Positions 5,309 through 54,976 of a DNA stretch of 64,000 bases are shown in pieces. The stretch spans positions 620,001 through 684,000 of the forward strand of contig JAIETZ010000004.1 of NCBI GenBank assembly GCA_019744775.1, in the 5' to 3' direction. Numbering within the stretch: the stretch's first letter is position 1; each line of letters opens with the position of its first letter. The notes under the pieces were generated by a model. The model saw only the letters and a list, made by a program, of their open reading frames with translations, was not told the DNA's origin and did no database searches. A program made the position numbers and the translations under genes. This DNA comes from Candidatus Obscuribacterales bacterium. GTDB taxonomy: Bacteria > Cyanobacteriota > Vampirovibrionia > Obscuribacterales > Obscuribacteraceae.

Positions 5309-8272
5309 ATGTCCGAGAAGCAGAGCAAGAGCTGCCAAGAGCAGGTCGCAGCGGCGCGAACAGCGAACTGCGAGCAGCCAAGCGCAGGCGAGGCTTCGCG
5401 AGCCGGAGCGTTATTAGTCCTAGTTGATGGCAGCGCGCTGGCATTTCGTTCCTTCTATGCTCTTTTTACATCCGGATTAAGAAAGGCAGACGGAACAGCA
5501 ACCTGGGCGGTATACGGCTTCCTTAACTCAATATTTGATCTATTAGAGACACGCAAACCGGACATGGTTGCTGTCTGCTTCGACTTGGCAGAACCAACTT
5601 TTAGACACAAAGAATACGAAGACTACAAAGCAAACAGAGCTGAAATGCCTGATGATTTGGCCACACAGTGGCCGATGATCAAAGAGGCAGTGGAATACTT
5701 AGACATTCCTATTCTTGAAAAACCCGGCTTTGAAGCTGACGACATCATCGGCACATTGGCTCGCATTGCCGAGCAAAAGAAAATGAATGTGCAAATTCTT
5801 ACAGGCGACCAAGATGCTTTTCAATTGCTTGATGGACACATTCAAGTATTGATGCCTGGCAAAAATGGTCTTGCTACTTTTGGTCGCGGAGAAGTTTTTG
5901 AAAAACTTTCTGTATGGCCAGAACAAATTGTCGACTATAAAGCCCTCTGCGGCGACTCTTCGGACAACATTCCTGGCGTGCGTGGAATAGGACCCAAGAC
6001 AGCAGTTCAACTTTTAACTGAATTCCAGACATTGGAAAATGTCTATGCAAATATCGACAAGATAAAGTCCAAATCAGTACAGCAAAAACTAATAGACGGC
6101 AAGGATAGCGCCTTTGCCAGCCAAAACCTGGCAACTATTCGCTTAGATGTCGATATAGACATTGACTTTGAAAAGCTCAAAGTCACTATGCCTAAAGTTG
6201 AGACTTTGGCAAATGGTCTAAAAGAATTCGAATTCAAAAACATGCTGAAGCGCCTGCCAAAAATTTTGGCATCATTCAATAACGGCGTAGAACCTGTAAT
6301 TGATGAATCCCTTTTGACCATGGGCACTGTGCAAACCAAACCTGCTAAAACAAATGGCGACGCAGCATCAGTCGCACCTCAAGGACAGCAACTCACGTTG
6401 GGAGTTGTGTCAACAGATGCCCCTGAACCAATAATAGTAACGACGGAGTCTCAGTTAGAAGATCTCATAAAGCAATTAAGCAAACAAGAAGTAATAAGTG
6501 TTGATTTAGAAACAACAGGACTTGCTTCACTAGACACGCAAATTGTCGGATATGCATTTGCCTGGGCAGATGAAGCACGCATGAAAGACTGCCGCGTTTC
6601 AAGCTCCAAGGAAAATTGGGATATTCAAACAGCCTATGTGCCCGTTCGCCACTTCGGCTCTCATCAGCTGCCGCAAGAATTGGTTTCAGCCAAACTCAAA
6701 CCAATTCTTGAAGATCAAAAGATCGGCAAAGTTGCTCAAAATGCCAAATACGAAATGAATGTCTTGTCTTTGGATGGTATTAAGTTTGGACCTGTATGTT
6801 TCGATCCATTGCTTGCCAGCTATATTGTCGACCCTGATGAAAAGCACGGGCTAAAAGACCAAGCTGAGCGAATCCTTGGACATCAGATGGTAAAAATAGC
6901 CGAGCTAATAGGCACCGGCAAAAAGCAATTGACGATGGAGCAAGTGCCGATATCACAAGCTGCACCGTATGCTGCCGATGACGCCCGGATGACCTTGGAA
7001 CTGGCGCGCTATTACAGTGCCACTCTCAATCCAACTCAGTTCAAATTGCTGACGGAAATGGATATGCCATTGGCGGCAGTACTGGCAAAAATGGAACAGA
7101 ATGGTGTTGCCCTGGACTTAGGTTATCTAGGTCTATTCTCCATGGAATTAACGCAAGACTTATCGCGTTTAGAACTGGAAATTTTTGAAGATGCCGGACA
7201 TTCTTTCAACATCAATTCTCCACAGCAATTACAAAAAGTCCTTTTTGAAGAGCTTAAACTGCCGGCTAAGTCAAAAACGAAATCCGGTTATTCAACTGAT
7301 GCCAGCGTTCTTGAATCACTAAAAAACGAACACCCCATCATCAGTAAGTTGATGGACTTCAGGCAAATGTCTAAATTGCGCTCAACTTACGTTGATGCTT
7401 TGCCGCGTCAGGTAAGCCCGCGCGATAAACGCCTGCATGGAGATTTCAATCAAACAGGAACAAGCACTGGGCGCCTGTCCAGCTCTAATCCAAATTTGCA
7501 GAATATTCCCATCCGCACGGAACTAGGCCGTCGAATTCGACGTGCATTCATTCCGGCAAGTGACTCAAATGTTTTGATATCGGCTGACTACAGCCAAATT
7601 GAGTTGCGATTACTTGCACACATGTGCGGAGATGAAATACTTCTTGATGCCTTCAAAAAGGACGAAGACATTCATTCACGTACTGCCGCAGAAATCTTCG
7701 ATAAGGAAATAAATGCCGTTGATTCGGACATGCGTCGAGTCGGCAAAACAATCAACTTCTCGCTCATCTATCAGCAGGGAGCTTACTCAACAGGCTTAGA
7801 TCTCGGCGTTACAACGAAAGAAGCTCAAGCATTTATCGACAAGTACTTCAGCCGTTATCCCAAAGTACGCAAATATCTAACGGACTCAATTGAAGACGCT
7901 CGCAGCAAAGGCTATGCAGAAACAATCTGGGGTCGCAAACGTTATTTCCGTAATCTCAACGACAGAAATGACATGATCCGCAAAGCTGAAGAACGTGCCG
8001 CCTGCAATGCACCTCTGCAAGGAAGCGCTGCCGACCTTATGAAGTTAGCGATGATTGATCTCGACAAAGAGCTGACGAAACGCCAGCTCAAAACGAAGCT
8101 CATTCTTCAAGTACACGACGAACTCGTCCTTGATGTGCCCAAAGACGAAGTCGATGAAGTAACCAAGATTGTTCGCGAAGCCATGTCGGTAAAGACAATC
8201 AACGGCGAAAAATTCCGAGTGCCTTTAAAGGTAGATATCCGTTCCGGTAAAAATTGGATGGAAGCTAAATAA
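5309..8272 (+). CDS. polA: DNA polymerase I with intact proofreading domain
   Basis: 987 residues, long for the family because of an unusual N-terminal extension of about 34 residues. The 5'-nuclease domain starts with LVDGSALAFRSFYALF, preceded in normal PolA by only a few residues. The 3'-5' exonuclease keeps its acidic residues (VDLETTG near 397, YAADDAR near 555). The polymerase domain has motif A DYSQIELR (about 757), motif B RRVGKTINFSLIYQ and motif C VHDELVLD (about 933). The start ATG follows AGAGGG. No ATG, GTG or TTG lies between the extension and the first domain, so the extension must be translated. It is encoded by a copy of the dispersed leader repeat. Roles are Okazaki fragment maturation and repair. 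Confidence 0.97.
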   Translation: MSEKQSKSCQEQVAAARTANCEQPSAGEASRAGALLVLVDGSALAFRSFYALFTSGLRKADGTATWAVYGFLNSIFDLLETRKPDMVAVCFDLAEPTFRHKEYEDYKANRAEMPDDLATQWPMIKEAVEYLDIPILEKPGFEADDIIGTLARIAEQKKMNVQILTGDQDAFQLLDGHIQVLMPGKNGLATFGRGEVFEKLSVWPEQIVDYKALCGDSSDNIPGVRGIGPKTAVQLLTEFQTLENVYANIDKIKSKSVQQKLIDGKDSAFASQNLATIRLDVDIDIDFEKLKVTMPKVETLANGLKEFEFKNMLKRLPKILASFNNGVEPVIDESLLTMGTVQTKPAKTNGDAASVAPQGQQLTLGVVSTDAPEPIIVTTESQLEDLIKQLSKQEVISVDLETTGLASLDTQIVGYAFAWADEARMKDCRVSSSKENWDIQTAYVPVRHFGSHQLPQELVSAKLKPILEDQKIGKVAQNAKYEMNVLSLDGIKFGPVCFDPLLASYIVDPDEKHGLKDQAERILGHQMVKIAELIGTGKKQLTMEQVPISQAAPYAADDARMTLELARYYSATLNPTQFKLLTEMDMPLAAVLAKMEQNGVALDLGYLGLFSMELTQDLSRLELEIFEDAGHSFNINSPQQLQKVLFEELKLPAKSKTKSGYSTDASVLESLKNEHPIISKLMDFRQMSKLRSTYVDALPRQVSPRDKRLHGDFNQTGTSTGRLSSSNPNLQNIPIRTELGRRIRRAFIPASDSNVLISADYSQIELRLLAHMCGDEILLDAFKKDEDIHSRTAAEIFDKEINAVDSDMRRVGKTINFSLIYQQGAYSTGLDLGVTTKEAQAFIDKYFSRYPKVRKYLTDSIEDARSKGYAETIWGRKRYFRNLNDRNDMIRKAEERAACNAPLQGSAADLMKLAMIDLDKELTKRQLKTKLILQVHDELVLDVPKDEVDEVTKIVREAMSVKTINGEKFRVPLKVDIRSGKNWMEAK
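5316..5413 (+). repeat. Leader repeat copy 1, in frame inside polA
   Basis: One of seven dispersed copies. It carries the 5' hairpin (GCTGC...GCAGC, loop ending GAGCAGG), a second small hairpin (CTG-CGAG-CAG), an AAGCGCAGGCGAGG tract and the terminal GCCGGAGCGTTA. It lies entirely within the polA reading frame and adds about 33 residues rich in Ala, Ser, Gln and Glu before the 5'-nuclease domain. In the other gene-proximal copies the same sequence sits upstream of the start codon. Confidence 0.8.
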
Positions 8273-9385: not shown

Positions 9386-10756
9386 TCATTTGGCAGCATT
9401 AAGTTTGCTGTGCTTCCTGCCATAGAAGAAGTAGATTAGAAGTCCTAGCGGACAAGTGACTGCATAGACTTTCAACACCAACGGATTGAGGTTGAAAGCA
9501 AGAATTGTGCAACCGAGCGCACCTAGTACGCCAACGAGCGGGCTGACTATTTTCAAACGCATTGCGCCTATGCAAACACAGATAAAGGCAACCAGTGTTC
9601 CTAAAACCATGATGTCTGAAACATCTTCGAATGGGACAAAACCTGCGCACAGTCCAACGATTGCTCCGTTCAAGAGAATTCCGAAACTTGGATTGCCTTT
9701 GTGCACTTTCTTAAATATCGGCGGAAGTAGACCATCTTCAGCCATGTTGCGGAAGATTCTTGGTCCGCCCATACAAAGTACGAGCAATACGTTGAAGATA
9801 CCCAATACAGCTCCGACTGCGATTAATGTACCAGCCCAGCCTTCGCCGGAAGCAATAAGCAATGAAGCAAGCGGTGCAGAGGCTTCGCTGCCTTTAAATA
9901 ATGGATTGATGTGTCCGTCTAAAAATACCGGCGCTAGTCCAACAGCGATGGCCATAACGACCACATAGAGCAAAGCAACCAGCCCGATACACAAATAAGT
10001 AGAGACTTTTGTATCTCTCAAACTTCTTGATTCACGAGCAAATGTATAAAGAGCGTCAAATCCGACGTAAGGGAAAACAGCAATTGCTGCACCTTGCAAA
10101 ACACCTTGCCACCCAAGTGGAGCAAATGGCTGCCAGAGAGCCAAGTTGATGTGCTTGAGTCCAGCGCCTATGAATACTACAAGCAAGGCACACTTCAAAC
10201 ATACAAGCAAGAAATTCAATTTGGCGGATTTACTTACCCCACCAAATATCAAGATCATTGTCACCACCGCAACAACACCCATGGCGACGACGTTGCAACC
10301 AAATTCAAAATGGTCACCTGTATGCACGGGTCCCATCAAATAAGGAGGTAATGTGTACTTGAGCGCTTTTTGTAGGTACGCACTCCAGCCTATGGCGACA
10401 GCAGATGCACCAAAGCTGTATTCAAGGAACAAACCGAAAGCGACGATCCAAGCAATTATTTCGCCTATTGAGTGATAGACATATGAATAAGCGGAGACCC
10501 CTTGCGGAACGACGCGTGAAAAACGTTCGTAGCAAATTCCAACAAACAAGAAAACTAAACCGGTAATTACAAATGACAAAATTCCTGCCGGACCAGCTTT
10601 TTCTGCAATGCGTCCAGGCATTACGAAAATTCCGGCGCCGATTGTCGCGCCAATTCCCAAAGCCGTCAGCATCAACCAACCTAAATGTTTAGGTGTGTCA
10701 TCCGCTGAAAGTCCTGGCGGTTGGGCCGGAATTCTTCTCATTAACGATGATGTCAT
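9386..10756 (-). CDS. APC-superfamily amino-acid permease
   Basis: A 456-residue inner-membrane transporter of the amino acid-polyamine-organocation superfamily. It is close in look to the cationic amino-acid (CAT/YfnA) branch. The first membrane segment has the family motif GIGATIGAGIFVMPG, and the third region has GVSAYSYVYHSIGE. Roughly 12 hydrophobic segments can be counted, and the length is typical. It is a proton- or exchange-driven carrier; the substrate cannot be assigned. The ATG follows AGGAAA, which lies immediately downstream of a copy of the leader repeat, so its mRNA leader would contain that element. Confidence 0.85.
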   Translation of the reverse strand: MTSSLMRRIPAQPPGLSADDTPKHLGWLMLTALGIGATIGAGIFVMPGRIAEKAGPAGILSFVITGLVFLFVGICYERFSRVVPQGVSAYSYVYHSIGEIIAWIVAFGLFLEYSFGASAVAIGWSAYLQKALKYTLPPYLMGPVHTGDHFEFGCNVVAMGVVAVVTMILIFGGVSKSAKLNFLLVCLKCALLVVFIGAGLKHINLALWQPFAPLGWQGVLQGAAIAVFPYVGFDALYTFARESRSLRDTKVSTYLCIGLVALLYVVVMAIAVGLAPVFLDGHINPLFKGSEASAPLASLLIASGEGWAGTLIAVGAVLGIFNVLLVLCMGGPRIFRNMAEDGLLPPIFKKVHKGNPSFGILLNGAIVGLCAGFVPFEDVSDIMVLGTLVAFICVCIGAMRLKIVSPLVGVLGALGCTILAFNLNPLVLKVYAVTCPLGLLIYFFYGRKHSKLNAAK

Positions 10757-10771
10757 TGCCGATTTCCTATG

Positions 10772-10906
10772 TAATGCTCCGGCTTCGTTTCACTTCGCCT
10801 TCGCTTGCCATCCGACTGTAGCGCTTCGCTCGACTGCGACCTGCTCACCGCAGCTCTTGTCTCACTTCTCGTGGGGCTTTGCCGCTCCGCATCTCCGGCT
10901 TGTTCG
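10772..10906 (-). repeat. Leader repeat copy 2, upstream of the permease
   Basis: Read on the minus strand it shows the 5' hairpin GCTGCGG-TGAGCAGG-TCGCAGT, the second hairpin GTC-GGAT-GGC, a GCGAAGGCGAAG tract and the end GCCGGAGCATTA. The ribosome site and ATG of the permease follow within about 20 nt. The 5' part also repeats a GCCGGAGATGCGGAGCGG block. The rest of this 203-bp divergent spacer must also hold the promoter of the 3-hydroxyacyl-CoA dehydrogenase gene, which I could not place. Confidence 0.8.
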
Positions 10907-14582: not shown

Positions 14583-14606
14583 TAATTGAGTTACTGAGCT
14601 AGACCA

Positions 14607-14719
14607 GAAGCCGAACAAGAGCAAGCGGAGCAAGAGCGGCGATGAGCCGGTCGCCGCGAAGCTAACAGGCAGAGCCGGATGGCTAGTGAAGATGTAGCGA
14701 TAGCGGAATCGGAACGTTA
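14607..14719 (+). repeat. Leader repeat copy 3, upstream of pyrG
   Basis: The best preserved copy. It has a perfect 7-bp hairpin GCGGCGA-TGAGCCGG-TCGCCGC (14636-14657), a second hairpin GCC-GGAT-GGC (14674-14683), a purine-rich tract and a terminal GGAACGTTA. AAAGGAG and the pyrG ATG follow directly. The leading portion GAAGCCGAACAAGAGCAAG is also seen in other copies. Confidence 0.85.
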
Positions 14720-14720
14720 A

Positions 14721-17974
<3,254 letters not shown>

Positions 17975-21060: not shown

Positions 21061-21164
21061 GGAACAAGAAGCGTAGCAAGAGCGCCGGTGAGGCGGTCGC
21101 TGCGAAGCGAACCAGGGTTGCTGGACAGCTAACGAAAGTGAAGCGAAGCGAAACTGGCGCGTTA
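21061..21164 (+). repeat. Leader repeat copy 4, upstream of clpB
   Basis: Starts GGAACAAGAAGCGTAGC, then the 5' hairpin GCGCCGG-TGAGGCGG-TCGCTGC (one C-C mismatch, two G-U pairs). The second hairpin is GCT-GGAC-AGC (21120-21129), which preserves pairing by a compensatory change relative to GCC-GGAT-GGC elsewhere. A GTGAAGCGAAGCGAA tract and GGCGCGTTA end the copy, 18 nt before the clpB ATG. Confidence 0.85.
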
Positions 21165-30340: not shown

Positions 30341-30430
30341 TACAAGAAGCGAAGCAAGGGCGGCGATAGAGCCGTCCGCTGCGCAACATAGGTGGCAGTG
30401 CCGGAGGCAGCGGAGGCGAAGTGGAACGTA
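30341..30430 (+). repeat. Leader repeat copy 5, between lexA and arginase
   Basis: The plus-strand copy starts ACAAGAAGCGAAGCAAGG. It has the 5' hairpin GCGGCGA / CCGCTGC with one bulge, the second hairpin GCC-GGA-GGC, and a shortened GGAGGCGAAGTGGAACGTA end. Unlike the other copies it does not precede a start codon: its 3' end faces the stop codon of the arginase gene, and it lies just upstream of the lexA promoter in opposite orientation. Confidence 0.75.
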
Positions 30431-30454
30431 GACGACACTAAATGTGTCGTCGGG

Positions 30455-34243: not shown

Positions 34244-34383
34244 AAAGCCGAGTAAGCGAAGGTGAAACTGAAGCTGATCAACAAAGAAGCTGAGCAAGCG
34301 TTGCGAGGAGCAATGCGCAGCGAAGCGAGCAACGAATGCCGGATGGCTAAGCGCAGGTGTAGCGAAGCGAAGCCGGAGCGTTA
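34244..34383 (+). repeat. Leader repeat copy 6, upstream of the FHA gene
   Basis: The longest copy, filling nearly the whole gap between the PP2C and FHA genes. Its 5' hairpin differs from the common one: GCGTTGC-GAGGA-GCAATGC (34298-34316). The second hairpin GCC-GGAT-GGC, GCGCAGGTGTAGCGAAGCGAAG tract (read in parts) and GCCGGAGCGTTA end match the others. The ATG lies three bases after the copy, so GGAG inside the repeat is the only plausible ribosome site. Confidence 0.85.
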
Positions 34384-34386
34384 TAT

Positions 34387-34716
34387 ATGACGCACCAGAA
34401 GACAATCCCCTTAGGCGGCGCGCAACTGGTAAACAAGGCTACCAGTGAAAGTTTCGTGCTTGAAAGATCTGTTCTAAAAATAGGTAGAGACGAAGGTAAC
34501 GATCTGGCCTTGCCTGACGATACTTATGTGTCGCGTCACCATGCATGGGTACTCCATATGCGTGGCAGCTGGTGGGTAGAAGACTTGGGCTCAACCAATG
34601 GTACGACCCTAAACGGAAAATCGCTGGAAGAGCGCAAGCAATTAGCTCCAGGTGATGCGATAAAGATTGGACGAACTGAATTGTTTTTTGAGTTGAGTCA
34701 GGGATCCGATGTATAG
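34387..34716 (+). CDS. FHA-domain phosphothreonine-binding protein
   Basis: 109 residues, essentially a lone forkhead-associated domain. The phosphothreonine-binding residues are clear: KIGRDEGNDL, SRHHAWV and STNGTTLNG, ending with IKIGRTELFFEL. It would bind phosphorylated kinase or substrates and so tether partners. Its ribosome site is supplied by the end of the leader repeat. Its stop overlaps the kinase start by 8 nt, indicating translational coupling with the kinase. Confidence 0.92.
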   Translation: MTHQKTIPLGGAQLVNKATSESFVLERSVLKIGRDEGNDLALPDDTYVSRHHAWVLHMRGSWWVEDLGSTNGTTLNGKSLEERKQLAPGDAIKIGRTELFFELSQGSDV

Positions 34717-54865: not shown

Positions 54866-54976
54866 GTATGCTCCAGGCTCATTGCATTCGCCCTTCGCCA
54901 GCCATCCGGCTGTATTACGTTATTACGTTCCACTTCGGATTGCTCCTCGCAATCCTTCGCTTCACTATACTCCGTT
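54866..54976 (-). repeat. Leader repeat copy 7, upstream of the M55 peptidase
   Basis: Read on the minus strand: a perfect 7-bp hairpin GGATTGC-GAGGA-GCAATCC (plus positions 54937-54955) and the second hairpin GCC-GGAT-GGC. A GCGAAGGGCGAATG tract and a GGAGCATAC end follow. It shares the alternative 5' hairpin with copy 6, with two changed but still paired positions. The peptidase ATG follows 17 nt later. The remainder of this spacer up to dapF (54977-55112) holds a TATAAT at 55083-55088. Confidence 0.8.

Follow-up and report, generated by a model that had tools for sequence, protein, structure and literature searches.

Several families of small structured repeats are dispersed through bacterial genomes, and the best described of them provide the closest comparisons for the element reported here. 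REP sequences are single palindromes of 20–40 bp with a GTAG or CGTC tag that are mobilised by RAYT, and together with BIMEs they are high-copy, intergenic palindromic repeats, sometimes located within genes, that plausibly act as RNA (PMC3733652). The repeat we describe is alike in these general respects but is ~98 nt long, forms three hairpins and is enriched before rather than after genes; by inspection it also lacks a GTAG or CGTC tag, having the terminal consensus AGAAGC...GAGCGTTA, and its genome contains no detectable Y1/RAYT transposase. The ERIC/IRU and YPAL elements of enterobacteria are similar in size (~100–130 bp) and also structured, are co-transcribed with their neighbours and have orientation-dependent effects (PMC2229807), whereas the present repeat shows neither a terminal inverted repeat nor TA at both ends and occurs in an unrelated lineage. 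Rickettsia palindromic elements are likewise dispersed and structured and also occur within the reading frame of conserved genes, as the present repeat does in polA, but they carry terminal inverted repeats and have numerous copies inside genes, compared with one established intragenic case here (PMC2229807). The CIR elements of Caulobacter and Brucella share an organization of two base-paired arms and a linker with no overall 5′–3′ pairing, and are set apart, by description, through a GANTC at the terminal loop and stops in all frames (PMC2229807). Of the features that define REP/RAYT and classical MITEs, the repeat lacks the single tagged palindrome, the accompanying RAYT and the terminal inverted repeats. 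No Rfam family exceeded its gathering threshold in the analysed DNA or over the elements of the scanned loci, and one copy searched separately had no match up to E = 10. A literature search, with most subscription journals outside its reach, recovered no earlier description. We class the repeat as a new form among the bacterial small dispersed structured repeats, to which REP, ERIC, RPE and CIR are alike in kind.

The DNA analysed (the window) is a stretch of 64,000 nt, C4:620001–684000, from a 4.1 Mb Candidatus Obscuribacterales genome in 13 contigs; these bacteria are little-known cyanobacteria that do not photosynthesize. A preliminary description had proposed a seven-base-pair hairpin at 14636–14657, and the sequence there is as it was quoted (GCGGCGATGAGCCGGTCGCCGC); it falls within a ~98-nt dispersed repeat whose copy at 14621–14719 (plus strand) lies upstream of pyrG (start codon 14730) and scores 101.7 bits (E = 3.6e-17) with R1, a covariance model built on 21 copies. 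A separate Shine-Dalgarno sequence native to pyrG, AAGGAG at 14720–14725, follows directly 3′ of the element. With R1, further copies were located in the window in frame at the N-terminus of polA (5316–5413, plus), upstream of an amino-acid permease gene (copy 10772–10869, minus, 98.5 bits; gene 9386–10756, minus), upstream of clpB (21067–21164, plus, 100.4 bits) and before an FHA-domain gene (34285–34383, plus, 101.1 bits), where the GGAG of the element is 8 nt upstream of the ATG at 34387. Two copies scored lower. One, at 30345–30454 (plus; 52.6 bits over 30345–30442), sits between lexA and an arginase-family gene, both assigned by Pfam, is antisense to both and carries a nested palindrome, GACGACACTAAATGTGTCGTC; the other, at 54866–54969 (minus, 50.5 bits), precedes a peptidase M55 gene of the same strand (Pfam).

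A BLAST search with positions 14600–14800 found 31 places in the source genome, and a whole-genome scan with R1 found at least 97 copies at E ≤ 0.01 and at least 110 at E ≤ 1. The copies that R1 located in extracted stretches number 108, itself a lower bound. Two congeneric genomes contained at least 72 and at least 103 copies, and the weak R1 matches in several further genera of the family were to a diverged form of ~86 nt that has the same first-hairpin architecture and ends in CGGAGCGCTT. A second model built from this form (R2) matched at least 21 of 50 genomes and at least 13 of 24 genera across the family, with at least 85 matches in the richest genome; in a draw of 146 genomes from the phylum, it matched the source genome and none of the 145 others. 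At the pyrG locus, the repeat is present in the same place in isolate D3_Bin_14 (98% PyrG protein identity) and absent from isolate SW_20 (74%). Phages and plasmids had no match to the repeat, and four IMG/VR pattern matches had no full-element match and appear to be coding; an origin from phages or plasmids was rejected.

Several further sequences were noted during this survey. Copies of a second subtype (CAGCGAGAACGAAG...GTGGAGCGTGG), in which the outer helix differs and is often AC/GU in place of GC/GC, occur at loci L055, L063, L068, L070, L072, L073, L075, L076 and L081. A further shared module resembling GGTAGCGAAGTAGCGACGAAGGAGCTACGGAGCGGACTTG lies near or inside some copies (L052:1501–1641, L083:1501–1794, L086:1501–1594 and L092:1501–1586). 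The orphan Rfam RNA poplar-1 (RF03041; for example L310:436–577, plus) was found in 22 of 40 relatives, at up to 12 per genome. It is multi-copy both in the present family and in a neighbouring one of the same order, and was not detected in the source genome. Several poplar-1 copies are close to contig ends, which suggests a link to repeats or mobile DNA.

The fold supported by our analyses begins, at pyrG, with a first hairpin of GAGCGGC (14634–14640) and GCCGGTC (14646–14652) around the loop GATGA (14641–14645), with a single G.G mismatch at 14636/14650. It is closed by two GC/GC helices, 14630–14631 with 14656–14657 and 14625–14626 with 14661–14662, between which lies a GNA/GAA 3x3 internal loop. 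The second hairpin, GCC GGAT GGC, is at 14674–14683 and varies among copies between GCC/GGC and GCT/AGC, and the third, at 14686–14715, combines GT/AC, GAT/ATC and GC/GC helices with GAA/GGA-type internal loops and contains the GGAA/GGAG segment at 14711–14714 (all on the plus strand). The consensus of the 5′ part is GC-GNA-GC-AA, the first hairpin with its GANGA loop, then GC-N-GC-GAA-GC and a variable linker; the 3′ part reads GCC-GGAN-GGC followed by GC-GAA-GGU-GAA-GCGAAGC-GAA-ACC-GGA-GC-GUUA. Each internal loop is 3x3 and has, on either side, a G in the first and an A in the third position (first G 72–97% and third A 80–99% over the six triplets), presumably the arrangement expected for sheared G.A pairs. 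Other unpaired parts, the GANGA loop and CCGGAGC, are conserved as well, and the GGAG columns at the 3′ end are 92–97% conserved. Folding of single sequences was not decisive, with z-scores from −3.6 to +1.1.

Many copies also contain a smaller second palindrome within a repeat loop, a module of the type AAGGAGA-hairpin-CGG with a mostly TAAAT loop (AAGGAGA-GACGACAC-TAAAT-GTGTCGTC-GG). Its arms also change in matched pairs, and its presence varies between orthologous copies. Besides the copy at 30345–30454 in the window, it was observed at L094:6226–6354, L050:1501–1625, L033:1501–1637 and L101:1501–1623.

The helices above are in a different register from the hairpin first proposed, GCGGCGA/TCGCCGC, and the two were compared, with 500 shuffles, on A1, an alignment of 21 copies made without regard to structure. 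In the proposed register, 89.8% of cells were standard pairs compared with 88.6% in shuffles, a value reached by 186 of the 500, and there were 4 double changes against 3.1 expected. In the alternative register, GA-G-CNNC/GNNG-G-UC around GANGA plus the two closing GC helices, 99.5% of cells were paired, which no shuffle reached, and 18 double changes were counted where 3.8 were expected. A phylogenetic test was then applied to 148 copies from the three species (98 columns), aligned without structure and placed on a tree, with 60 simulated null alignments that retain the tree and substitution counts; this was a custom R-scape-like script rather than R-scape itself. Five pairs exceeded all 60 nulls, 15-31, 18-28 and 17-29 in the first hairpin and 78-82 and 73-87 in the third, and most of the remaining variable pairs of the model ranked high. 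None of the seven pairs proposed at first was in the top 45, and three of them, 18-35, 22-31 and 19-34, were standard in just 49%, 61% and 80% of all copies. Covariation among the copies thus exceeds what their phylogeny accounts for, as is characteristic of a structured RNA or ssDNA.

Changes between species at the same site provided supporting evidence. Flanking sequence assigned an orthologous copy in the source genome to 36 of 89 copies located in stretches of the two congeners, and among usable pairs the model helices had 26 double changes and 12 one-sided changes that kept a pair and 12 changes that broke one; the first hairpin alone had 11, 0 and 2, respectively. These counts use model-based alignments and lean toward the model structure, unlike the 21-copy shuffle test and the 148-copy phylogenetic test. 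Examples include GAGCGGCGATGAGCCGGTC in the source genome versus GAGCTGCGATGAGCAGGTC in congener G001 (L095/L232), GCGTTGCGACATAGCAATGC versus GTGTTGCGACCGAGCAATAC in congener G002 (L036/L300), and GAGCGGC/GCCGGTC versus GGGTTGC/GCAATCC in the pyrG copy of G002. One-sided intermediates are few at orthologous sites. In several pairs with double changes the element is far more diverged than its flanks (85% versus 97% identity for L095/L232), which makes replacement by another copy likely; other orthologous elements are strongly kept, with 100/100 and 98/99 positions identical where the flanks have near 90% identity. Of the non-Watson-Crick pair cells, read on the purine-rich strand, more are G-U (59) than A-C (15). 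Strand-blind mutation would produce the two equally, so the constrained strand is the purine-rich strand as written here. G-U pairs make up ~1.5% of all pair cells, which is low for an RNA.

Together, these data strongly support a constraint on a folded nucleic acid, the general conclusion that the preliminary description drew from compensatory changes, although the stem, loop and pair table on which it relied differ from those found here. The stem strings it quoted are present at pyrG (14636–14657), at the permease (minus, 10772–10869), at polA, at clpB and at the 30-kb copy, but the accounting of pairs was incomplete (pair four at clpB is C-C) and the copy at 34285 (GCGTTGCGAGGAGCAATGCGC) does not form the stem. 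The 8-nt GAGC(C/A)GG loop does not hold either, as the clpB loop reads TGAGGCGG and that at 30 kb has 9 nt, and the bases taken for a conserved loop are the 3′ arm of the supported stem. At orthologous sites, one-sided changes broke the proposed stem as often as they kept it (15 each), and neither of two double changes kept it, for 17 breaks in total; this is the outcome that the preliminary description had itself named as refuting. Shuffles, phylogenetic covariation and orthologous-site changes all being against it, this register was rejected, an illustration of how a hairpin that is plausible by eye can be out of register, its supposed loop being in truth a conserved 3′ arm.

The genomic context of the copies, assessed with simple longest-ORF calls rather than annotation, was directional. 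In clear intergenic settings of the source genome, 36 copies were sense and 10 antisense between co-directional genes (p = 1.6e-4), 22 were in divergent spacers and 12 in convergent spacers, and 18 of the 22 in divergent spacers were nearer the gene to which they are sense. The congeners showed the same direction (17 sense and 5 antisense; 12 of 15 in divergent spacers), although for their non-orthologous copies alone the bias was not significant (11 and 5, p = 0.21). Start codons of downstream sense genes fell into two classes, one with a spacing of 2–6 nt from the element (17 copies) and one with 11 nt or more; none was at 7–10 nt. In the closer class the element’s own GGAG is ~8 nt before the start, placed as a Shine-Dalgarno sequence, and of the copies listed at 11–40 nt, 18 of 24 have a separate Shine-Dalgarno-like motif between element and start. 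Predicted accessibility of GGAG was not higher where such a role is possible (0.50 versus 0.62 unpaired by folding), and a decay of the fold among antisense copies was suggested without reaching significance (p = 0.14). The name ‘leader repeat’ given at first is accurate for some copies; others lie after genes, between or beside tRNA genes (L101, L050), antisense or inside coding sequence. Contexts were mixed, with no consistent position upstream of related genes, the named downstream genes being unrelated.

The coding case is polA, whose ORF begins MSEKQSKSCQEQVAAARTANCEQPSAGEASRAGA and reads the repeat in frame over about residues 3–35, ahead of the 5′–3′ exonuclease domain, whose first residue is 36. 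This in-frame N-terminal extension (window 5309–5413) is found in the source genome and in G002, where the frame is kept via a copy with an extra nested hairpin; in G001 the site is empty and a short different sequence is found there. A comparison of the window sites by two 20-kb queries showed that the pyrG site is occupied in all three genomes, that G001 also has empty permease and 30-kb sites and occupied clpB and 34-kb sites, and that in G002 the clpB and 34-kb sites are empty and the permease site is occupied. The empty sites are not clean, and their flanks are too diverged for identifying junctions or target-site duplications. By inspection, no terminal inverted repeats are visible, the ends AGAAGCG... 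and ...GGAGCGTTA having no complementarity to each other. The search for a mover covered PF01797 and PF00078: the Y1 transposase/RAYT model had no match in the source genome (~98% complete) and matched in five control genomes, and no reverse transcriptase was detectable in the source genome, on which grounds REP/RAYT-type or retro-mobility was rejected. With no candidate enzyme, no terminal inverted repeats and no clean empty site, the case for mobility is made by the occupancy differences alone.

We consider it probable that the repeat is a lineage-specific family of small (~85–100 nt), dispersed, non-autonomous elements whose fold is needed in single-stranded form, as transcript and/or ssDNA, and which are tolerated or used as leaders. 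On the purine-rich strand, three short hairpins would be connected through GNA/GNA internal loops. The fold is preserved by paired changes, presumably as a structure needed in the transcript and/or in ssDNA during spread; copies turn over between congeneric species and favour transcribed spacers in the sense direction. The 3′ end of the element (CCGGAGCGTTA) lies just upstream either of a start codon, with its GGAG spaced as a possible Shine-Dalgarno sequence, or of a native Shine-Dalgarno sequence. Host genes may tolerate or use such copies as folded 5′ leaders, since a GGAG is supplied at a suitable spacing or the native motif stays free. Counting against this explanation, the PF01797 and PF00078 searches gave no candidate transposase or reverse transcriptase, and the rarity of G-U would fit ssDNA or template-switch correction. 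The results above on fold integrity in antisense copies and on GGAG accessibility count against it as well. A further and rather speculative extension, which we hold to be unlikely, is that the repeat is a mobile structured RNA with its own ribosome-binding site, which spreads within an uncultured bacterial family, lands in the sense direction in transcribed spacers, replaces or buffers the Shine-Dalgarno sequence of dozens of housekeeping genes, and sets translation through its GNA/GNA-loop fold.

A fold needed solely as ssDNA, by a putative REP- or IS200-like transposase and with incidental effects on genes, is possible, if clearly less probable than the reading above. It would agree with the high copy number, the occupied and empty sites, the rarity of G-U and a fold preserved to a similar degree whether copies are leaders, 3′ or antisense, and GCGAAGC resembles a known hyperstable DNA mini-hairpin. 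It does not require the sense bias or the placement beside start codons, and the source genome has no Y1 transposase although the controls matched; a mover could be encoded in the ~2% that the assembly lacks. We regard as improbable a cis-regulatory RNA, whether riboswitch, thermometer or protein-bound leader, that would control the downstream genes as a regulon. Leader positions, the conserved GGAG within the third hairpin and the covariation point that way, but many copies follow genes, stand between tRNA genes, run antisense or lie within coding sequence, the named downstream genes are unrelated, occupancy varies among congeners, and there is no conserved ligand-like core. Quite improbable, in our judgement, is that no fold is selected and that decaying repeats are corrected at the DNA level as quasi-palindromes by replication template switching. 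Such correction could account for double changes exceeding one-sided kept changes at orthologous sites, most sharply in the first hairpin, and for almost perfect Watson-Crick pairing with very few G-U. Yet template switching treats the strands alike, whereas G-U exceeds A-C 4:1 on one strand; the unpaired GANGA loop, GNA triplets and CCGGAGC are conserved too; and divergence of the L095/L232 type points to copy replacement rather than correction in place.

Small dispersed repeats are common in bacteria, and covariation that fixes the fold, in combination with start-codon spacing that links a repeat to ribosome-binding sites, is seldom available. In each of three congeners, the family described here supplies ~100 natural variants, and diverged forms are available from a dozen genera. 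Such variants make it testable, both by sequence and by reporter, whether the constraint on such repeats acts at the level of RNA or of ssDNA.
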